A stretch of DNA of 64,000 bases. Source: Vibrio tapetis subsp. tapetis (lineage in GTDB: Bacteria > Pseudomonadota > Gammaproteobacteria > Enterobacterales > Vibrionaceae). Below the pieces are notes generated by a model. The model made no database searches and was not told the origin of the DNA. It saw only the letters and a list, made by a program, of their open reading frames with translations. The translations under genes were made by a program, and so were the position numbers. This document shows, piece after piece, positions 31,867 to 46,552 of this stretch; position 1 is the stretch's first letter, and each line of letters opens with the position of its first letter. The stretch lies in contig NZ_LT960611.1 of assembly GCF_900233005.1 (NCBI RefSeq), forward strand, positions 1,674,001 to 1,738,000, written 5' to 3'.

Positions 31867-33959
31867 ATCGAGTAGGGTGAGGCGTCTCCGCCTCATCCCT
31901 CTCACAGAACCGTACGTACGGACCTCGTATACGGCTCATGCACATTTCCATTCAGCATAATGGCTGAACACATATCCTGTCCTAACGTGTTCAAGATTCA
32001 CTAATCCAAGGTCGTTAAACCATTGATTTGGCATCGAGTAACTGGCTAATGGACTCGCAGCATTTCTCCAACTATCCATACAGATATACCTGAATGACCC
32101 TTCGTAACCTAGCTGTCTTAGCCTGCGGTGGAGTCGGGTCGGTTTTTTCCATAATCGTAATTGGACGCTGCGAAGTCTTCGCCTTAACCACGCGGCCAGT
32201 TTCTTAAACTCCCTGTTGGCATTCGCTATTCGAAAGTACTGGCTGAACCCTCTCAGAAGTGGATTCAGTTGTTTAATGACTTCTAACAATGGCTTACCGC
32301 CATTGCGTCTTGTCACTCGCTTCAACTTTCCTTTGAACGTCGACATTTTCTTTGGCTGAATACGGCTATAATGGCTACCGATTTCTATTCCAAGGAATTT
32401 CACACCTTCGCCGCTGTGCGCTATGTGTGATTTGGTTTCGTTCACCGTTAACTTGAGCTGTTTTTCCAGGACCTTCGTTGCCTGTACTTGCGCATTTTCT
32501 GCACCTTTACGGCTGCGACAGAAGATCAGTATGTCGTCGGCATAACGGACTATTCGATGTCCTCGCTTTCGCATCTCTTGATCAAACGCATCCAGATAGA
32601 TGTTCGCTATCAGTGGGCTTATTACTCCACCTTGCGGACTACCTATCTCGGTATGCTGCCACTCTCCATCAACCATTACGCCACTTTTCAGGAACTGTTT
32701 GATGAGCTCCAGTACGCTACTGTCTGTGACTCGTTTCTTAATGCTTTTTAGAATAAGCTCGTGGTCGAGCTTATCGAAGCACTTCGATAAGTCCATATCT
32801 ACGACGTGTTGCATTCCGTATCGACGGATGAACATCGTCGCTTTGTTTATAGCATCGTGACAACTTCGATTCGGTCTATACCCAAAGCTGGATGGGTGAA
32901 ACTGCTCTTCGAAGATTGGGGTTAATAGATCATTTAGAGCTTGTTGGACAACTCTATCCCGTACTGTTGGGATCCCAAGTAATCGCACCCCACCATCATC
33001 TTTCGGTATTTCTACCCGTCTGACGGGTTGAGGGGTGTATCGCTTGGTTTTGAGTTCCAGAAGAAGTTGATCTAGGTTATCACTCAGATTTTGGGCGTAG
33101 TCGCTTAGGCTCTGCCTATCTATTCCGGCCGCGCCTTTCGCTTTCCACACTTTTTTAAATCCTTTATAGAGTCGCTCTTTGTGGAGCAAGTGACCATATA
33201 AACTGTAGTAAACTCTCAACTTTTTCCTTTAGATTGTGTGCCGTGTGGGGACAAATGCTCTCTCACAGTGTTGGTGTATTTCACTCCACTCTCTAGCCTT
33301 CTAGCTCAATGGCAATTTACTAGAGTGAGTCAGAGTTACTCCCTTGTACGGTTTCTCGCTTCAGTGCTTTGCTTTCACAAAGACCGAGACGGAATACCTC
33401 GATAGCTAATCAACTTGTATACCACTGAAAAAAAAAAACATCTGCTCATCACAGACTTAAAATGTACTTCATCCCTTCGCAACACCAGATTGCTTTTGGC
33501 AAAATGTTGTCCCATCAGACGTGTTACTGATGGTCAGCTCAGTTTTATCCTCCACACCATTACTGGGCTTCACCGGCCGAGCTTTACTCACTACTACGGA
33601 TTCATCTGCCACCTCGCACCAACATAGATCTTGGCTCTCGCCTTGAGTTTATGCTTCCGACGTTTGCTCGGATGTGGTGTCAGGCTTCCCCAGTTACTGC
33701 ACTGGCTCCCTGTTAACAATGCCACCCTCAAGCACAATCTAGGTCTGATTGAGTATCGGGCTTCACGCTATTTTGCACGCTTACCCACCTAAATTGCCGA
33801 ATCAGGTTCACTTTCGTTGTGTACTGTTAACTTCCTATCGCTTCCTTCAAACCCTGCCGTTGGCCAGCAACGCCCTTGCGATTCGGATTATCTTCCCCTC
33901 AATCAGGGTGATTTAGGCTTCTTTCAGCCTAATGGGTTTGCCAGCTTCGCTGGGCAAAC
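31867..33959 (-). mobile_element. Group II intron, copy 1 (whole element)
   Basis: A 2.09-kb retroelement on the minus strand. The 3' end shows a domain V-like hairpin starting GAGCCGTATACG and ending CGTACGGTTC (31933 down to ~31903), a domain VI hairpin (GATGAGGCG...CGCCTC) and the terminal ...CCCTACTCGAT. The 740 bp ahead of the maturase frame are structured non-coding intron RNA. Ends were set by where this copy and copy 2 stop matching. The first bases read GTTTG rather than the usual GTGYG, so the 5' boundary is accurate only to a few bases. It follows the mukB hairpin and T-run directly. It differs from copy 2 mainly in an A-run of 11 instead of 8. Confidence 0.88.
31936..33219 (-). 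CDS. Group II intron reverse transcriptase/maturase, copy 1
   Basis: A 427-residue LtrA-type intron-encoded protein. Reverse transcriptase blocks include RPNRSCHDAI, DMDLSKCFDKLDHE, the GSPQGGVISPLIANIYLD block (193-210) and the active site YADD (226-229). The C-terminal ~130 residues form the maturase (X/GIIM) domain (LRRRLRSVQLRLWKKPTRLH). There is no C-terminal HNH endonuclease, as in classes that do not cleave the second strand. The start is a TTG with AAAGGA upstream. The protein is identical to copy 2. It promotes splicing and reverse-transcribes the intron into new sites. Confidence 0.95.
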   Translation of the reverse strand: MRVYYSLYGHLLHKERLYKGFKKVWKAKGAAGIDRQSLSDYAQNLSDNLDQLLLELKTKRYTPQPVRRVEIPKDDGGVRLLGIPTVRDRVVQQALNDLLTPIFEEQFHPSSFGYRPNRSCHDAINKATMFIRRYGMQHVVDMDLSKCFDKLDHELILKSIKKRVTDSSVLELIKQFLKSGVMVDGEWQHTEIGSPQGGVISPLIANIYLDAFDQEMRKRGHRIVRYADDILIFCRSRKGAENAQVQATKVLEKQLKLTVNETKSHIAHSGEGVKFLGIEIGSHYSRIQPKKMSTFKGKLKRVTRRNGGKPLLEVIKQLNPLLRGFSQYFRIANANREFKKLAAWLRRRLRSVQLRLWKKPTRLHRRLRQLGYEGSFRYICMDSWRNAASPLASYSMPNQWFNDLGLVNLEHVRTGYVFSHYAEWKCA

Positions 33960-34020: not shown

Positions 34021-37000
34021 TTACGCTAAATCCGCTTCTTCTATCAGCTGTTGCACTTCTGATTTTGGCTTGGCTTTGTTGCCGAAGCCTCGCAAGCCAA
34101 CCACATGAACGTGCTCATGATCCTTGAATATCTTACGAACCAGTTTATAGGTTGTACCTTGCTCTGGGCTAATATTCTCAGGAGCAGCAATAAGTAGCTG
34201 CATGTCCAAACGATCACAAAGCTCAAACAAAGTATTGATTGACTTGGTATCCAGACGAGCGGCTTCATCTAAGAACAACAGACGACATGGTACGATGTCT
34301 TTGCTTCTTAAACGTCGTGACTCTTCTTCCCAGCTTTGAATCACCATCAACAAAATAGATTGACCAGTACCAATCGCTTCACCTGTTGATAAGGCACCAG
34401 ACTCTGCTTGTAACCAACCGTCCGTTCCACGATTAACTTCAACGCTTAATTCTAGGTAATTACGGTAATCCAGTAGCTCTTCACCCAAAACTTGTGGTGA
34501 ACGCTGACCCATATCAATATGAGGATTCACACGTTGGAACAGCTTGGCCATCGCTTCTGAGAAGGTGTAGCGCGGGTTTTCGAACAAGTCTTGATGTTGC
34601 TCTTTTTGACCCGCTAAACCGTTTAACAAGACTTCATGGCTTTCACGGATATTTACGTTTAAGCGAACGCCCTTCACCTGACCAAAGTTAATGTTCGACA
34701 AGCCTTGGTTAAGCATGCGAATGCGGTTCTGTTCACGTTGAATGGTTTTCTTAATGATGGCCGCTGCCGACTCAGAGCTGATCGCCAAACGATTTTCACG
34801 TTGGGTTAACTCTTCGGTTAGTCGAGCAAGCTCAACTTCCATTTCTTCAATTGCTTCCACAGGATCATCGGTGTGAATGATGTCTTGACGAATGCGAGCA
34901 CGAAGGTGTTGATAAACCGCAATGTAGAACAATACCTTACGTTCAGGGCGAGCGTTATCTTCCGATGCTCTTAATGAGTCTCGTAAGTCTTCGTTATCTG
35001 ACACGGCAAGACGCAACGCACCTAACGATTTATCCGACATTGAACGAAGGTCGTCTGCCGACATATAAGCCAGCTCACGACGATGCAAGCGACGCTCCAC
35101 GTCATTTTCACGAGCAAGACGAAGTACAGAGCACCAACCGGCTTTAGCTGCAACGACGTAAGTTCTCAGCTCAACGTACTCTTTTTGAACTTTCTTCAAA
35201 CGTTTCGCCAACGCTTTCATTTCTAGCTCTGTTGACGTAATCGTGCGTTCAAATTCACTCTTACGTGTGCGGGAACTGTGTAAGCGTTCTTGCAGTTCGT
35301 TACGACGACCGACTGCTCGCTCTTCTGAACCGGCATCGGCATTCACACCATACTCTTGCAGTTCCAATCGGAACTCTTGCATGGTTTCCGCTTTTGCTTG
35401 ATGAGAGCTTTTTAATGATGCCAACACTTGGTTGTATTGGTTCATTTGCAATTGAGCTTGCTTGTAACCGTCACGGCCTCGTGTTCGAGCGCGCTCGGCT
35501 TCGACTAATTTGGCTTTCAGTTGATCACTCAGTTCGCTGCTCTTGTTAAGCAAGTCAACCGAATCTGAATACGCAAAATGGTGACGACGTTCGACCAAAT
35601 CTGCCAGTGCAAATATAGTCGTTTTAAGTGACTGAAGTGCGTTGTCTGCAATGTCGTAACTGGCTTTTAATGCATCAAATTGTTCTGGGTCCGCTTCCAA
35701 TGCATTAGCAATTTTCTCTAGCTGCTGTACGGCTTTACCATGAGACGAAACAAATGTTTTTGCTTCACCGAGCTGTGCAAGTTTACTTTCTACTTCTTCA
35801 AAGCGATCACTAAGGGTCTGATCTTCCATCAAGCCCATTAGTGGTGCTAACGAATCAAGTGATTTAAGTGCGTGTTTACTTGCCGTTAATAAAGCACGTT
35901 GAGTCTGTTCTTTATTGGTAAGTTCCGACAAAGTACGAGCAACTTGCGTTCGTTTATCTCGCGCTGTTTCCAACGCTTGCTCTGGGTCTGCTTCAAACGC
36001 CACCGCGATATGTTTAGCGACAAAGTTGTTATAGCTTTGGAACAGTCGCGAAAGCTTCTGCGAATCAAACGCTGCTTTTGCATATTGCTCTTGCACGTCT
36101 TCACGCTCACCACGTAGCAACTCTAAGCGTTGTTCACGAGCTGCACGGCCAAACAGTGGGATCTCAGGTAAGCGGGAGTAACGTAGTTGACGGTCGTTTA
36201 GCTGAACACACACCGCACCGTTAAGTTCGTCGGCATTGAAAGAGCTGTCGTCAAAGGCATCAATGTCTCCTTCGATAATGTACAAATCTTCTGGGCAGTC
36301 ATCTAACTCAATGAGCTTTTCTTTAATACCTTCAAGATCAGACACAACAATTGCGTGACGAGCGGGCCCATACATAGCGCTGAAATACGGCGCATCTTCG
36401 ATCGTGATGTCATCATAAATTTCTGAAAGTAATACGCCACCAACGGTATCTTCCAAGCCTTTAAGACGAGGATCGTTTGAACCGCCAGGTGATGCTAAGC
36501 GTTCGATGTCTTGATCCAGTTGGTTACGTCGCTCAGCGAATTTGTCTTTGGCTAGCGATTGTGTTTTCTCTGACTCAAGTACTTGCTGCATTTGCGACAT
36601 GACAGCATGGCTATCGTAAAGATCAGCGTCTGACTGTTCTTTCAGTTTTTCTAGCGCGTCATTTGCGGCAATCCAAGCTGGAGCGATGGCTTCTAGCTTA
36701 TTAATTTCCGCATTGGCGTCTTGCTCCGCTCGGCGTAATTCACTGCGCGACTCTCGAAGTGACTCTTGTTCATGCTCCATTGACTCTACACGAGCTGAAT
36801 GGCGCTCACGCTCTTCTTCCAACGCCAGTTCGTCTTCAAGTTGTACTTGATGCTGTTTCTGATACTCGGTAACAGATTGAGCTACTTGACGTTGCTGATG
36901 AAGACTGCGCTCAAGATCTCGATATTGAGCTTGCCACTGCTGCTCGTTTTGCAACAATTGCTGTGCGTTTTGATGTTGGCGTATTGCTGATTTTGCGTGA

Positions 37001-38487
37001 TGAGAAGCTTGTGCACGATCCACGTCACCGGCAATGCTTTTCACCAAGGTATAAGCGCGTTCAAACTGCTCTACTGCCGCTGAAGACATATCAAGCTTGT
37101 GTTTTACCGCTAACAGTTCAGATGTTTTGTCTGCTTCGGATTGCTGCAGTTCACCAAGAAGCGCTTTCGCGTTGTCTGGGGTTAAATCGTCAAACTTAGC
37201 GAGGGTCTTGGCTTTTTCCAGTGCCGTTACCGCTTGCTGGTATTGCAATGCGCGAGTTTGCTGCACATCCAGAGCTTGTTGGTAGTCAGCCAATTGAGAT
37301 TTCAGGCTGTCTACTTCTTCTTCCGATATCTGTGCTTGCTCTTCCGCCATCATCACGCGTTCTTGCGCTTCTTCAACCACCATCATCTGTTCTTCAAGAC
37401 GCTCGCTGAGTTCTTCAAGATCTTCTTTATAACGGGCGATTTTTTCTTGCTGACGCAGGGCGTTTTGAACCAGTTGCAAATGATCCGATGCTGCTTGGAA
37501 ATCTTGCTCTAGGCCAGTTTCTTGCTCCACCAGCATTTCAAGTTCTTCTTGAACGCGGTTCAGTAGGCTATTTTGTTCTAGCAGCTTTTCGCGAGAACCA
37601 AACAGTTCACCACGAAAACGCATGGTTTGATCAAGCTTATTACGGCGCTCGTTGGCATGACGCATGTAATCCGCGGCTACATAGTTGGTAGACTCGGTAA
37701 TTAAGTGCTTAAAGAGATCACGATCCGATTGAGTGGTTTTAATTGCTTCCAAGGTCATGCGGTTTTCACGCAGAGCCGATTCCATGTCTTGGAACGCTTT
37801 TTTCACACCACCATTTTGCGGTAATAAGTAATCTCGAAGTGAGCGTGTGATTGCACTAGAGATACCACCGTACAAAGACGCTTCAATCAAACGATAGAAT
37901 TTTGAACGATCACTGGTGTTACGAAGCTTCTTCGGTAATACGCCAAATTCAAACATTTGAGAATGGTATTCAACCACTGATGAAAATGCTTTGAAAGACA
38001 CACCTTCGTATTGGGCAACCGCTTCTTTTACTTCATTGATCTGACGAACACGCGCATGTTTATCTGACACACTTTCTATCAGGATGTCCGTCGGCTTAAC
38101 GTCGCTCGGCAAGCCTTGAATAACAAACGGCTTAATGTCGACTTTTTTATCACGACCCGCTACCTGCTGTAGCTTTACGCCGAACAATAGGCGTTGGTTA
38201 CGTGAGTTAACGACATCCAACGCTGCATAACAGGCGCCAGGTTGCAGTTTACCGTAAAGCCCTTTATCACGGGATGCTTGAGAGCTACCCGCTTCGGTTG
38301 TATTTCTAAAGTGCAGTAAGCTCTGATCAGGGATCAGCGCCGTAATAAACGCTGCCATCGTGGTCGATTTACCTGCACCGTTACCACCGGAAAGCGTAGT
38401 AACCAAGCCATCGATATCAAAAGTACGAGCAAAGAAACCGTTCCAGTTGATCATGCTTAGTGATTGATACTTGCCTCTTTCAATCAT
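34021..38487 (-). CDS. mukB: Chromosome partition protein MukB
   Basis: A 1488-residue SMC-like condensin ATPase (E. coli 1486). The Walker A is GGNGAGKS (34-41) in the N-terminal head. Two long coiled coils (~290-660 and ~780-1200), rich in Glu, Gln and Arg, flank a globular hinge containing [20 protein letters not shown]. The C-terminal head has the signature [17 protein letters not shown] and Walker [14 protein letters not shown]. With MukE and MukF it organises and segregates the chromosome. Last gene of cmoM-mukF-mukE-mukB, it overlaps mukE by 4 bp and is followed by a terminator and then group II intron copy 1. Confidence 0.97.
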
Positions 38488-41448: not shown

Positions 41449-42231
41449 ATGTTTGAGCTGAAAAAAGTGTTTTCTGCATTGTTAATGCCCCTTCCTGCGT
41501 TTCTGATCATCGGTCTATTTGGCCTTTTGTTAGTCATGTTCACTATGCGCAGAGGTACTGGTTGCCTACTGATATTTTTATCTTTTACCGGAATTTTCTT
41601 GGCATCATTCCAACCTGTCGCGCAATCTCTTCTGATGCCAATGGAGCGCCAACATAAAGGTTTCTTACCGATTGATGAGCCCATTGATTATGTCATGGTA
41701 CTTGGTAATGGCCATATTGTTGACGACGATATTCCTCCAACGTCAGAGTTGAGTCGCACGGCCCTAATGAGGTTAACGGAAGGTATGCGCATCCTTCGCA
41801 TGTACCCTGGTGCCAAACTTATCCTATCGGGATACGCTGGCGGTTCAGAAATAAGCCATGCACGTATGATGGCAAAAGTGGCTTTGGCTTTAGGGGTTTC
41901 GAAAACCGATATCATTTTGCTTGAATCGGCGAAAGATACATGGGAAGAAGCAAGACAAGCGGCCGTTTTCGTCGCGAACAAAAATCTCGTGCTCGTTACC
42001 TCTGCGAGCCACATGAGCCGAGCTTTAGTCGAATTTGAAGATGCGGGTATTTCTCCTTTTCCAGCACCAACCAACTTTTTAGCGTCCAACGCGGATATGC
42101 AGCCGTGGAATCAATATCGCCCTAGCTCCCAATACTTAGAGTGGACGGAGACCTACTGGCATGAAAAGTTAGGGACTTGGTGGCAATCTCTACGCGACTT
42201 CGCAGTCGACAGTAATGCAAGTGCGAATTAA
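41449..42231 (+). CDS. elyC: Envelope biogenesis factor ElyC (DUF218)
   Basis: A 260-residue inner-membrane protein with two N-terminal TM helices (~12-32 and ~38-58) and a DUF218 (SanA/ElyC/YdcF) domain (~78-225) with YVMVLGNG, SELSRTALMRLTEGMRI, LILSGYAGG and LVTSASHMSRAL. E. coli ElyC affects peptidoglycan synthesis and undecaprenyl-phosphate carrier metabolism. It is divergent from cmoM, the same arrangement as ycbC-smtA in E. coli. Its downstream terminator appears to have been split by the IS element. Confidence 0.88.
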   Translation: MFELKKVFSALLMPLPAFLIIGLFGLLLVMFTMRRGTGCLLIFLSFTGIFLASFQPVAQSLLMPMERQHKGFLPIDEPIDYVMVLGNGHIVDDDIPPTSELSRTALMRLTEGMRILRMYPGAKLILSGYAGGSEISHARMMAKVALALGVSKTDIILLESAKDTWEEARQAAVFVANKNLVLVTSASHMSRALVEFEDAGISPFPAPTNFLASNADMQPWNQYRPSSQYLEWTETYWHEKLGTWWQSLRDFAVDSNASAN

Positions 42232-42260: not shown

Positions 42261-42279
42261 AAAAACCGAGATAATCATC
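42261..42279 (+). terminator. Left half of a split intergenic terminator
   Basis: AAAAACCGAGATAATCATC here and GATAATCATC followed by TCGGTTTTTTT at 45788-45808 would join into a bidirectional hairpin (AAACCGAGAT / ATCTCGGTTT, loop AATC) between convergent elyC and torR. The IS element separates the halves. Confidence 0.7.
42270..42279. repeat. IS target-site duplication, left copy
   Basis: GATAATCATC is repeated exactly at 45788-45797. It directly abuts the IS end TTAATGCC. Ten to eleven bp is within the range of IS4-family duplications. Confidence 0.85.
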
Positions 42280-42284
42280 TTAAT

Positions 42285-42308
42285 GCCACTCGCTTAAGAG
42301 CGAGTGGC
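42285..42308. terminator. Palindrome at the transposase stop codon
   Basis: GCCACTCGCT-TAAG-AGCGAGTGGC is a perfect 24-bp palindromic stem-loop that contains the transposase stop codon. It could end transposase transcription and block read-through across the IS end. Confidence 0.55.
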
Positions 42309-43616
42309 ATGTTTATTGGGGTATCGGGCTGGCTTTTTTAAAACCGCTCTGGGGTATGGTTTCCTTTTCCGTTTCTTGGGGAGAATAAGCCGCTTCCCAT
42401 TGTCCCTGAGAGCTTTTAAGTTTTTTGGTATCGCTCCTGGACTTCGAGTGTCGCTCGCCCAAATCATCTCATCCATAATCAAAAATAAGGCATTAATGAA
42501 GCTGATCCGTAGAGGCTCAACTTCATGTTGTTTAGCCATCTCAGCCATTTCCAGCCTCACGATGTTATAGCTGGTTAATATTCCCCATAGCTCCTGATAT
42601 ATCCCGACTTTTTTCTTACTTCGTAATGTTGGTTTGTTTTGTAACTGATACTGCTTTAGTTCGCCGTAACTGCGTTCGATTTCCCAACGCTCCCAATACA
42701 CTTTAACTAAGTCATCAAACAGATAGCGCTCAGGGCATAAGCACGAAGTAATGAAGCCTTTGATTTCACCTTTAGGGGTTGGAATTAGAATAAGGCGTGC
42801 TTGCCATCTCTTGCCAAGATAGGGAGTCTGCTTTTGAGCTTGTGGTGAAACAGGCATCTCAATGAGATGATCATAATCAGTATAACTCTCGATTATGTCA
42901 TAGCGCATTTTGGTTTTGATTGGTGTTAACCAGTGGCTGTTACTGCTAGCACCCTGCCAGCTGGTAAATAACTCCGCAGAAGTGAACCCTCTATCAAAAA
43001 GTGTTAATGAGTCATCTGGTGCTGACCCCACAAGTTGTTGGGCATATGATATTTCACTGTTTGTTACTGGTCCAAAAGCAGCATCGGACACAAGGTGGCT
43101 ACGTGTAGACATTAATGTTACTGCCAACACGCTTGGAAATGATGCACCTTTTTGAGCAAACCCAAAATGCTGATTTTCTTCGGTATTGTGAGTTTTGAAA
43201 TACGTTCCATCGACACTAAGAAGCTTTAAGCCACAAACTTCGTCAAAGTCTGATTGTTGCTCCCACTGTTGGGCTGTAGTTTTAAATAAGTAACGCATAG
43301 GTTTATCGCCGAGGCGTTCTTTCCCCTTGATAATACTGCTTGTTGCCATAGGTGTGAGTTCACCATCTACATCAGGGAATGCTAACTCCAACTTGTCGCA
43401 GACATCTTGAATGGAGCGATTACGTTGGAGCCCAATCCCTAATACTAACCAAACAGCTTGCTCTGCGGGGAGGCGTCGCTTTCTGAGCGATACTCGTCCA
43501 GTTTGTTGAACAGCTTCTTCAACCCATTCCCAAGGAATGTGTTTATTAAACACATCGATTGGACGTTCGTGGCAAAACTCTGCGGTAACCTGTAACTCTT
43601 TTGAAAACTCAGACAT
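42294..43616 (-). CDS. IS4-family transposase
   Basis: A 440-residue DDE transposase with N-terminal DNA-binding region (~1-110). Likely catalytic residues are D136 (LLSVDGTYFKT), D208 (LTLFDRGFTSAEL) and E314 within Y307-x2-R310-x3-E314-x6-K321, the YREK signature of IS4 elements. The C-terminus is basic (RLILPKKRKRKPYPRAVLKK). The frame is full length, so the enzyme may be active. The ATG begins two bases after the intron 3' end and no ribosome site is visible before it either with the intron or after conceptual removal. Confidence 0.93.
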   Translation of the reverse strand: MSEFSKELQVTAEFCHERPIDVFNKHIPWEWVEEAVQQTGRVSLRKRRLPAEQAVWLVLGIGLQRNRSIQDVCDKLELAFPDVDGELTPMATSSIIKGKERLGDKPMRYLFKTTAQQWEQQSDFDEVCGLKLLSVDGTYFKTHNTEENQHFGFAQKGASFPSVLAVTLMSTRSHLVSDAAFGPVTNSEISYAQQLVGSAPDDSLTLFDRGFTSAELFTSWQGASSNSHWLTPIKTKMRYDIIESYTDYDHLIEMPVSPQAQKQTPYLGKRWQARLILIPTPKGEIKGFITSCLCPERYLFDDLVKVYWERWEIERSYGELKQYQLQNKPTLRSKKKVGIYQELWGILTSYNIVRLEMAEMAKQHEVEPLRISFINALFLIMDEMIWASDTRSPGAIPKNLKALRDNGKRLILPKKRKRKPYPRAVLKKPARYPNKHATRS

Positions 43617-43617
43617 A

Positions 43618-45707
43618 ATCGAGTAGGGTGAGGCGTCTCCGCCTCATCCCTCTCACAGAACCGTACGTACGGACCTCGTATACGGCTCATGCACATTTCC
43701 ATTCAGCATAATGGCTGAACACATATCCTGTCCTAACGTGTTCAAGATTCACTAATCCAAGGTCGTTAAACCATTGATTTGGCATCGAGTAACTGGCTAA
43801 TGGACTCGCAGCATTTCTCCAACTATCCATACAGATATACCTGAATGACCCTTCGTAACCTAGCTGTCTTAGCCTGCGGTGGAGTCGGGTCGGTTTTTTC
43901 CATAATCGTAATTGGACGCTGCGAAGTCTTCGCCTTAACCACGCGGCCAGTTTCTTAAACTCCCTGTTGGCATTCGCTATTCGAAAGTACTGGCTGAACC
44001 CTCTCAGAAGTGGATTCAGTTGTTTAATGACTTCTAACAATGGCTTACCGCCATTGCGTCTTGTCACTCGCTTCAACTTTCCTTTGAACGTCGACATTTT
44101 CTTTGGCTGAATACGGCTATAATGGCTACCGATTTCTATTCCAAGGAATTTCACACCTTCGCCGCTGTGCGCTATGTGTGATTTGGTTTCGTTCACCGTT
44201 AACTTGAGCTGTTTTTCCAGGACCTTCGTTGCCTGTACTTGCGCATTTTCTGCACCTTTACGGCTGCGACAGAAGATCAGTATGTCGTCGGCATAACGGA
44301 CTATTCGATGTCCTCGCTTTCGCATCTCTTGATCAAACGCATCCAGATAGATGTTCGCTATCAGTGGGCTTATTACTCCACCTTGCGGACTACCTATCTC
44401 GGTATGCTGCCACTCTCCATCAACCATTACGCCACTTTTCAGGAACTGTTTGATGAGCTCCAGTACGCTACTGTCTGTGACTCGTTTCTTAATGCTTTTT
44501 AGAATAAGCTCGTGGTCGAGCTTATCGAAGCACTTCGATAAGTCCATATCTACGACGTGTTGCATTCCGTATCGACGGATGAACATCGTCGCTTTGTTTA
44601 TAGCATCGTGACAACTTCGATTCGGTCTATACCCAAAGCTGGATGGGTGAAACTGCTCTTCGAAGATTGGGGTTAATAGATCATTTAGAGCTTGTTGGAC
44701 AACTCTATCCCGTACTGTTGGGATCCCAAGTAATCGCACCCCACCATCATCTTTCGGTATTTCTACCCGTCTGACGGGTTGAGGGGTGTATCGCTTGGTT
44801 TTGAGTTCCAGAAGAAGTTGATCTAGGTTATCACTCAGATTTTGGGCGTAGTCGCTTAGGCTCTGCCTATCTATTCCGGCCGCGCCTTTCGCTTTCCACA
44901 CTTTTTTAAATCCTTTATAGAGTCGCTCTTTGTGGAGCAAGTGACCATATAAACTGTAGTAAACTCTCAACTTTTTCCTTTAGATTGTGTGCCGTGTGGG
45001 GACAAATGCTCTCTCACAGTGTTGGTGTATTTCACTCCACTCTCTAGCCTTCTAGCTCAATGGCAATTTACTAGAGTGAGTCAGAGTTACTCCCTTGTAC
45101 GGTTTCTCGCTTCAGTGCTTTGCTTTCACAAAGACCGAGACGGAATACCTCGATAGCTAATCAACTTGTATACCACTGAAAAAAAACATCTGCTCATCAC
45201 AGACTTAAAATGTACTTCATCCCTTCGCAACACCAGATTGCTTTTGGCAAAATGTTGTCCCATCAGACGTGTTACTGATGGTCAGCTCAGTTTTATCCTC
45301 CACACCATTACTGGGCTTCACCGGCCGAGCTTTACTCACTACTACGGATTCATCTGCCACCTCGCACCAACATAGATCTTGGCTCTCGCCTTGAGTTTAT
45401 GCTTCCGACGTTTGCTCGGATGTGGTGTCAGGCTTCCCCAGTTACTGCACTGGCTCCCTGTTAACAATGCCACCCTCAAGCACAATCTAGGTCTGATTGA
45501 GTATCGGGCTTCACGCTATTTTGCACGCTTACCCACCTAAATTGCCGAATCAGGTTCACTTTCGTTGTGTACTGTTAACTTCCTATCGCTTCCTTCAAAC
45601 CCTGCCGTTGGCCAGCAACGCCCTTGCGATTCGGATTATCTTCCCCTCAATCAGGGTGATTTAGGCTTCTTTCAGCCTAATGGGTTTGCCAGCTTCGCTG
45701 GGCAAAC
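43618..45707 (-). mobile_element. Group II intron, copy 2 (inside the IS element)
   Basis: This 2090-bp copy matches copy 1 through domains V and VI, the maturase frame and the 5' structured RNA; the visible difference is an A-run of 8 (45179-45186) instead of 11. It sits on the minus strand between an IS hairpin with TTTTT and the transposase ATG. Upstream of the maturase (44971-45707) there is only intron RNA. Confidence 0.88.
43687..44970 (-). CDS. Group II intron reverse transcriptase/maturase, copy 2
   Basis: A 427-residue protein identical to the copy 1 maturase: reverse transcriptase with YADD at 226-229 and maturase domain X, no HNH endonuclease, TTG start with AAAGGA upstream. Identity of the two proteins implies recent copying or gene conversion. 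It could act on either intron in trans. Confidence 0.95.
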   Translation of the reverse strand: MRVYYSLYGHLLHKERLYKGFKKVWKAKGAAGIDRQSLSDYAQNLSDNLDQLLLELKTKRYTPQPVRRVEIPKDDGGVRLLGIPTVRDRVVQQALNDLLTPIFEEQFHPSSFGYRPNRSCHDAINKATMFIRRYGMQHVVDMDLSKCFDKLDHELILKSIKKRVTDSSVLELIKQFLKSGVMVDGEWQHTEIGSPQGGVISPLIANIYLDAFDQEMRKRGHRIVRYADDILIFCRSRKGAENAQVQATKVLEKQLKLTVNETKSHIAHSGEGVKFLGIEIGSHYSRIQPKKMSTFKGKLKRVTRRNGGKPLLEVIKQLNPLLRGFSQYFRIANANREFKKLAAWLRRRLRSVQLRLWKKPTRLHRRLRQLGYEGSFRYICMDSWRNAASPLASYSMPNQWFNDLGLVNLEHVRTGYVFSHYAEWKCA

Positions 45708-45740
45708 AAAAATCGGCCGTAACTTACGTTACGACCGATT
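45708..45740 (-). terminator. IS-internal hairpin at the intron 5' boundary
   Basis: On the minus strand AATCGGTCGTAAC-GTAA-GTTACGGCCGATT (one G-U pair) is followed by TTTTT, and then intron copy 2 starts. It looks like an intrinsic terminator protecting the transposase from external transcription. Confidence 0.75.
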
Positions 45741-45787
45741 ATGAGGCCTCTGGAGGATCGTTCAAGTAGCTAAACGATCGGCATTAA

Positions 45788-45808
45788 GATAATCATCTCG
45801 GTTTTTTT
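45788..45808 (-). terminator. Right half of the split terminator, with right target-site duplication
   Basis: GATAATCATC (45788-45797) duplicates the left flank, followed by TCGGTTTTTTT. Joined with the left half it makes the terminator expected between elyC and torR. Confidence 0.7.
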
Positions 45809-45838: not shown

Positions 45839-46552
45839 TCAATCACCCGCAAACATATAGCCTTCACCATGAACCGTTACGAAGATTTGTGGATTTTTAG
45901 GATCCTGTTCCATCTTGGCTCTCATTCGACGAATCAATACGTCGATAGTACGATCGTTAGGGGCGTCGACACGATGGCTGATCATATTCAAAATCCGTTC
46001 ACGACTTAACACTTTGTTCGGATAAGATGACAAGGCAACAAGCAATTCGTACTCAGCCTTTGTCAGCTTGACCGGCTCTCCATTGCAACTTAATGATCTT
46101 CTTTGAACATCAAATGTCCATTCACCAAAACGCACAAGTTGTCCTGATTCTTCTTTTTGAATATCACGTGAAGAAGCTTCCGATACTAACGAAATTCTCC
46201 AAAGTAAATTCTTAACCCGAACGAGTAATTCTCGCAATTCAAAGGGCTTGGTAACGTAATCGTCTGCGCCCATCTCCAAACCAACAATTTTATCAATGCT
46301 GTCTGTACGACCGGTAACCAGTATGATGCCAATGTTAGACTGGCTACGAAGTTCTCGCGTCAGCATTAGCCCATCTTCGCTAGGAAGGTTAATATCTAGC
46401 ATCACCAAATCTATGGAGTACTCACCCAAAATGGCACGCATCTGTTCGCCATTTTCAGCTTCGCTCACGGTATAACCTTCATTTTGGAAGTAACCCGCCA
46501 GCTTACTACGTGTGACCACATCATCTTCTACGACTAAAACGTGATAGCTCAT
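45839..46552 (-). CDS. torR: Response regulator TorR
   Basis: A 237-residue OmpR-family regulator. The receiver domain has phospho-acceptor D53 (LVMLDINLPSEDG) with the acidic pocket VVEDD near the N-terminus and switch Lys in DYVTKPFELREL. The winged-helix DNA-binding domain is ~140-235 (LTKAEYELLVAL, DRTIDVLIRRMRAKMEQDP). In E. coli TorR with sensor TorS activates trimethylamine N-oxide respiration. Divergent torD next door supports the name. No torS, torC or torA is in this window. Confidence 0.88.
   Translation of the reverse strand: MSYHVLVVEDDVVTRSKLAGYFQNEGYTVSEAENGEQMRAILGEYSIDLVMLDINLPSEDGLMLTRELRSQSNIGIILVTGRTDSIDKIVGLEMGADDYVTKPFELRELLVRVKNLLWRISLVSEASSRDIQKEESGQLVRFGEWTFDVQRRSLSCNGEPVKLTKAEYELLVALSSYPNKVLSRERILNMISHRVDAPNDRTIDVLIRRMRAKMEQDPKNPQIFVTVHGEGYMFAGD

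Follow-up and report, generated by a model that had tools for sequence, protein, structure and literature searches.

The window, a 64,000-nucleotide stretch of the Vibrio tapetis subsp. tapetis genome, contains a 3.5-kb insertion that separates the convergent genes elyC and torR. The insertion is a nested element, in which an insertion sequence (IS) of the IS4 subgroup carries a group II intron of the IIC type in the leader of its transposase gene. Both the IS4 subgroup and the group IIC introns are known kinds of element. Judged from the sequences of their copies, the arrangement is very probably the meeting of two unrelated mobile elements that each home to terminators, where the IS entered the loop of the torR–elyC terminator and the intron entered the terminator in the leader of the IS itself. 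That the nested structure would be a product of chance was considered and rejected. Positions below are those of the window, and the flanking genes are named as in a preliminary description of the same DNA:

42281..45786, minus strand: IS4-subgroup insertion sequence, 3506 bp with the intron and 1416 bp without it, with ends TAATGCC/GGCATTA
42294..43616, minus strand: IS4 transposase, 440 amino acids, intact, with D136, D208 and E314 and with Y307-R310-E314-K321
43618..45707, minus strand: IIC-type group II intron of 2090 bp, both ends of which occur at 40 places in the genome
42269..42280: target-site duplication, left copy, AGATAATCATCT, covering the loop of the torR–elyC terminator and the inner part of its stem
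45787..45798: target-site duplication, right copy, AGATAATCATCT
41449..42231, plus strand: elyC, convergent flanking gene
45839..46552, minus strand: torR, convergent flanking gene on the other side

The outermost base at the IS ends differs among the copies in the same genome (TTAATGCC, CTAATGCC or ATAATGCC) and is therefore assigned to the target, so that the IS starts with TAATGCC and the duplication is the 12-bp AGATAATCATCT. The flanking direct repeat reported in the preliminary description is thus real, but the IS ends were placed one base off on each side, and the 10-bp repeat given there is not the full duplication. An intron-free form of the IS had also been predicted, with a length of 1418 bp. 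Intron-free copies do exist in the genome, and three of them are identical letter for letter to the window IS minus the intron, but the length is 1416 bp. By pattern search, the genome holds 16 copies of the IS, and a single one, the window copy (L041), has the intron.

When the element is removed, the rejoined hairpin is evident in the sequence, and an empty site is found in the relative G127, whose torR is 99% identical and the closest seen. In G127 the torR–elyC terminator is intact (AAAAAACCGAGATTAATGTCTCGGTTTTTTT), a single IS copy is located elsewhere in the genome, and a search for the intron gave no match. The comparison of the torR–elyC region covers 30 loci including that of the window, out of 50 matching genomes among 61. 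Under a strict perfect-stem test, 21 of the 29 further congeners have a terminator 3' of torR, and a hairpin is visible by eye in six more, while L182 and L196 show no hairpin within 100 bases after torR; elyC is convergent with torR in 28 of the 29, and was not seen at L195. The uninterrupted terminator in G127, together with the hairpins of the congeners, shows that the IS did enter a terminator loop, as the preliminary description had proposed.

The earlier assignment to the IS4 family holds as well, on the basis of the ends, the DDE and YREK residues, and domain matches of the transposase to PF13006, PF01609 and NF033592. In addition to the DDE triad (D136, D208, E314), the residues Y307, R310, E314 and K321 are invariant in a 9-sequence alignment. 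For the IS4 subgroup, De Palmenaer 2008 (PMC2266710, Table 1, in the part of the paper available to us) gives ends of the form -AATR, direct repeats of 10–13 bp, a length of 1400–1650 bp and a common DDE/YREK motif; the window IS has TAATG ends, a 12-bp duplication and 1416 bp. E. coli IS4 shares the same ends (TAATGCCGATCA). The transposase profile has no match among solved structures at an E value of 0.001. A search of the phage collection gave no match.

As for the torR–elyC site, the rebuilt empty sites of the other IS copies in this genome are mostly terminators. We extended the comparison to a genus sample of 93 IS copies from 23 genomes, with transposase identities of 45–100%. At most seven copies per genome were scored, except for the genome of the window itself, and IS-rich genomes are undersampled as a result. 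A duplication is present in 83 of the 93 copies, and after removal of the 10 copies without one and of 4 duplicate sites, 79 distinct sites were available. With a tolerant hairpin test, a hairpin is centred on the duplication at 63 of these, including 11 of the 14 in the genome of the window. A scan of GTDB genomes gave 80 loci, and with four partial genes excluded (L243, L244, L276 and L278), 76 were tested; 35 of them have no recognisable duplication, and 11 of the remaining 41 sites were already in the genus set. The 30 new sites, all but one of them outside Vibrio, include Photobacterium, Shewanella, Acinetobacter (40% transposase identity), Pseudomonas, Legionellaceae and Colwellia, and 24 have the hairpin.

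The same test is passed by 1.4% of random 52-mers from the window, by 10 of 239 window sites with the frame AAAN17–21TTT, by none of 50 with AAAN20TTT, by 4.6% of sites with shuffled interiors, and by 12.3% of constructs in which left and right halves were swapped between sites. At distances of 4–9 bases from the centre, complementarity is 68–78%, compared with 27–51% after swapping. The centre of the duplication falls on the hairpin axis at 44 of 62 sites and within 0.5 bp of it at 58. Cuts lie 3–4 bp inside the A-run at 58 of 60 sites and inside the T-run at 48 of 58. The frame itself, written as a preference for AAAN17–22TTT, fits 61 of the 79 genus sites and 21 of the 30 others, compared with 0.8% of random 52-mers. 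The target consensus of IS4 is AAAN20TTT, a string that was not found in the literature searched.

On this sequence evidence, the IS4-subgroup transposase prefers bidirectional terminators, i.e., AAA, an inverted repeat of about 20 bp, and TTT, and cuts mostly 3–4 bp within each of the two runs, at equal distances on either side of the hairpin axis. Because of the symmetric cuts inside the runs, the duplicated 10–14 bp consist of the loop and the inner stem. The preference would provide the consensus AAAN20TTT with a physical meaning, the frame of a bidirectional intrinsic terminator, and would predict where such elements land in Gammaproteobacteria. It would also account for a possibly mild effect on the host and for the use of a terminator as transposase leader. 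A more trivial explanation is that insertion can take place nearly anywhere within an AAA...TTT frame, and that copies survive only in terminators, where they do no harm. The hairpin sites are indeed of the kind that gene ends would offer, and copies of E. coli IS4 occur inside genes too. Tolerance of this kind leaves the centring on the axis (58 of 62 within 0.5 bp) unexplained, and it fits poorly with hairpins at 63 of 79 sites when so few of the window sites with either frame have them, and we regard it as very improbable.

Harder to set aside is the possibility that the IS reads a two-fold symmetric sequence only, with no hairpin or cruciform being formed, and that terminators are simply the commonest repeats of this type. 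DDE transposases with symmetric targets are common, and the distance from the cuts to the A- and T-runs is nearly fixed. The stem sequences, on the other hand, vary freely between sites and yet stay complementary, which is hard to reconcile with base-by-base reading, even if it is still compatible with recognition of bending or symmetry. We consider recognition of symmetry alone quite possible, if somewhat short of probable.

Several observations weigh against a preference for terminators. The hairpin test failed at 16 of the 79 genus sites and at 6 of the 30 others, 10 of the 93 genus copies have no duplication, and swapping of partners still yields hairpins at 12%. At 57 of 68 IS sites the A-run and the T-run are each 8–13 bases away from the axis, but the same holds for 22 of 33 terminators targeted by the intron, and the A/T frame may be just the usual geometry of terminators here. 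E. coli IS4 gives a mixed picture. The sample consists of 20 copies (K-12 and 19 of the 60 records listed among 2739 matches), which were reduced, partly by eye, to 9 loci (four bamD variants were merged, as were two adhE copies). At 6 of the 9 loci the insertion is centred on a hairpin. The hairpins after glgP, between pdxK and crr, between bamD and raiA, and at adhE have a T-run, but those near cspG and after glcA have a weak T-run or none, and no good hairpin is present at the K-12 locus, in an iron-sulfur protein gene or in yicI. The K-12 site fits AAAN20TTT despite the missing hairpin. Since the hairpin test fails at some sites, and hairpin-free sites occur in E. coli, the IS prefers the loops of intrinsic terminators strongly but does not require them.

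We found no statement in the literature that IS4 elements target intrinsic terminators, although the search did not cover most subscription journals or ISfinder, and the preference may be known elsewhere. In the portion available to us, PMC2266710 remarks that the target arms of elements in the IS4 subgroup are strikingly specific, and its main text does not use the word "terminator"; in the sites described here, these arms are the A- and T-runs that flank hairpins whose interior is complementary. A parallel is ISRm22, an IS4-family element that inserts into repetitive extragenic palindromic (REP) sequences (Tobes and Pareja, PMC1525189, consulted in part). ISRm22 and other REP-targeting ISs have a palindromic intergenic target in common with the window IS, but the REP elements are not A/T-flanked terminators, and ISRm22 is placed in a different subgroup, IS4Sa (PMC2266710, in the part available).

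The IS carries terminator-like hairpins of its own:

45708..45740, minus strand: IS leader terminator with a 13-bp stem, a 4-nucleotide loop and a T-run, the insertion point of the intron
42283..42310, plus strand: inward-facing terminator-like hairpin at the IS right end, with a 12-bp stem and a T-rich tail, facing transcripts from elyC
45738..45765, minus strand: promoter-like sequence TTGAAC-16-CATAAT, overlapping the beginning of the leader hairpin, with transcription expected to start in the left arm of that hairpin

Over 3.75 kb, 6 terminator-like sites are found, both IS terminators among them (the leader one at 45740–45711 on the minus strand), compared with 3.1 (standard deviation 1.7) expected by chance. 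A single hairpin therefore proves little, and the weight rests on comparison of copies. In a set of 44 elements, one per genome or organism label, a leader hairpin with a T-run is present in 39 and nearly always abuts the transposase ATG, and the leader stems of Vibrio elements, Acinetobacter elements and E. coli IS4 vary in sequence yet stay paired. The second, inward-facing hairpin at the right end is found in 22 of the 44, including E. coli IS4. That the other 22 have no right-end terminator counts against a general role, and the promoter-like match, taken alone, does not rise above chance expectation (7 sites, compared with 5.7 expected). A promoter-like sequence is seen by eye at the equivalent place in related leaders.

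If the hairpins work as terminators, the leader terminator and the right-end terminator would stop transcripts arriving from torR or elyC, by which the transposase would be insulated, and they would functionally replace the terminator broken by the insertion. Transcripts from outside would form the full leader hairpin and stop before the transposase gene, while the transcript of the element itself would start within the hairpin and escape. Such insulation makes sense for an element with a tendency to insert where transcribed genes end. As a tentative generalisation, possible rather than probable, IS4-subgroup transposases would read terminator structure (a hairpin or cruciform within an A/T frame) and not sequence, and the elements would bring a replacement terminator at one or both ends; they would then be transposons that swap terminator for terminator, in a niche shared with group IIC introns that may ride on them.

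The intron has the following parts, in addition to its ends:

43687..44970, minus strand: intron-encoded reverse transcriptase/maturase, 427 amino acids, with a TTG start after AAAGGAAA
43618..43690, minus strand: Rfam match to RF00029, the 3' catalytic domains of the intron
45449..45618, minus strand: Rfam match to RF02001 (D1D4-3), intron RNA

Both Rfam matches are above the gathering scores, and the intron boundaries are GUUUG...AU, compared with GUGYG...AY as the group IIC criterion. The maturase has the Pfam domains RVT_1 and GIIM only, without an endonuclease domain, and its nearest solved structures are 7uim, which we take to be a group IIC intron, and GsI-IIC (6ar1). Pattern searches for both ends find 40 copies of the intron in the genome, 39 of them outside the IS. 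Their lengths are 2084–2095 bp in 37 cases, with two shortened copies (2021 and 2022 bp) and one of 2585 bp. A T-run is located 5' of the intron in all 40, and a bulge-free test finds a hairpin before it in 38, the remaining two (L019 and L028) folding as bulged hairpins; in 33 of 36 copies the intron is preceded by at least 5 Watson-Crick pairs in an uninterrupted stem. By these features, the position after a hairpin and T-run and a maturase without endonuclease domain, which it has in common with the group IIC introns GsI-IIC and 7uim, the intron can be said to behave as group IIC. It differs from the known members in being present as 40 copies in one genome, one of which is within an IS leader. 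The upstream stem-loop of group IIC introns is described in PMC7923331, as far as the consulted part of that paper goes.

Within the IS, the intron is positioned as the preliminary description had it, between a hairpin with T-run and the transposase ATG, which starts two bases past the last base of the intron, and the transposase open reading frame (ORF) is intact. Because the intron is found at 39 other terminators, the copy in the IS is best regarded as one terminator insertion among 40, a group IIC-type intron that would have landed in the leader T-run on its own, most simply after arrival of the IS. One detail does not favour this explanation. The first exon base 3' of the intron is G in 36 of the 40 copies but T in the IS copy, which makes the IS copy an off-consensus intron site. 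A DNA transposon and a retroelement, of unrelated classes, thus share one genomic niche, and the nesting of the two probably follows from that.

The preliminary description offered a different account, in which the IS can be the vehicle of the intron and splicing may govern the transposase leader. The location of the intron between the promoter-like sequence and the ATG fits this view, as does the intactness of both the transposase and the maturase ORF, and there is a precedent in RmInt1, which is found in ISRm2011-2 (PMC4238363, seen in part). What speaks against it is the distribution, with the intron in one of 16 IS copies and 39 intron copies outside the IS. Scanned with a simple pattern, backed by a positive control, the 80 GTDB IS loci showed no leader-intron signals, and the same scan of the 79 genus IS loci gave L041, the window's own copy, as the sole hit. 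Some pattern hits in these scans were set aside: D5-like strings at L268, L270 and L294 that come without a reverse-transcriptase ORF, seven G128 copies in which the hit falls within the transposase gene, and L043, where the ORF is outside the IS. The combination is thus absent from every other scanned IS locus, and spread of the intron by the IS could not be upheld. Moreover, the transposase ORF is uninterrupted, so splicing is unnecessary for the reading frame. We consider the account as a whole unlikely, although splicing control of the transposase in the nested copy is possible.

Unspliced RNA from the nested copy would place a 2.1-kb structured intron 5' of the ATG, and the normal leader would be regained by splicing. 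The transposase of this copy would probably need either splicing or supply from another copy. Since a transcript that starts inside the hairpin would lack part of the stem-loop used by IIC introns, splicing may be poor. The preliminary description was also right in that neither form shows a normal ribosome site, but this is not peculiar to the nested copy. It is usual among the relatives, where nearly all of the leader terminators seen in 39 of 44 elements abut the ATG. No ORF of at least 90 amino acids starts within 14 bases of the intron end at the 36 other intron copies tested.

As for the window element, RmInt1 in ISRm2011-2 is a mobile group II intron inside an insertion sequence, and in the consulted part of PMC4238363 the intron is proposed to limit its host IS. 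In contrast to the window intron, which is of the IIC type and located in the leader, RmInt1 belongs to class D (IIB-like) and breaks the transposase frame. IStrons (PMC4227781, available in part) likewise combine an intron with an IS, but their intron belongs to group I and forms one unit with the IS. An IStron was rejected here because the intron belongs to group II and 15 of the 16 IS copies have no intron.

Some further observations concern other copies of the intron. A second one is present in the window at 31867–33959 on the minus strand (2093 bp), after the terminator 3' of an ORF of 1488 amino acids (34021–38487), presumably MukB-like from its size and neighbours. The shortened copies L036 and L037 lack about 70 bases (positions 1773–1830 of the IS query are unmatched), and L310 (C1:305873–308457) is about 0.5 kb longer than the others. 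In G043 (C1:6360–10545), two related introns (L140 and L167), 81% identical to the window intron, are arranged in direct tandem, with the start of the second coinciding exactly with the 3' end of its neighbour. Relatives of the intron with 77–84% identity over the covered parts occur on plasmids of Vibrio, Alteromonas, Proteus, Pseudoalteromonas and Marinomonas.

The IS also occurs on a plasmid. Contig C3 holds a copy at 34971, and another record, that of the 82-kb Vibrio tapetis plasmid pVT1 (NC_010614.1), has the IS at 34972–36387 with 100% identity over the covered IS parts. The pVT1 copy lies directly 3' of traI, and since the plasmid is typed as conjugative, it could offer the IS a way to spread. 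At L080 (G000 C2:971706), an IS copy without duplication is located between two half-terminators that do not match, perhaps from recombination of two IS copies. One terminator is a hot spot: in several Vibrio species it holds IS4-type elements (L057, L108, L113 and L130), which seem to lie in opposite orientations and to belong to two IS lineages; L259 is the same site as L057.

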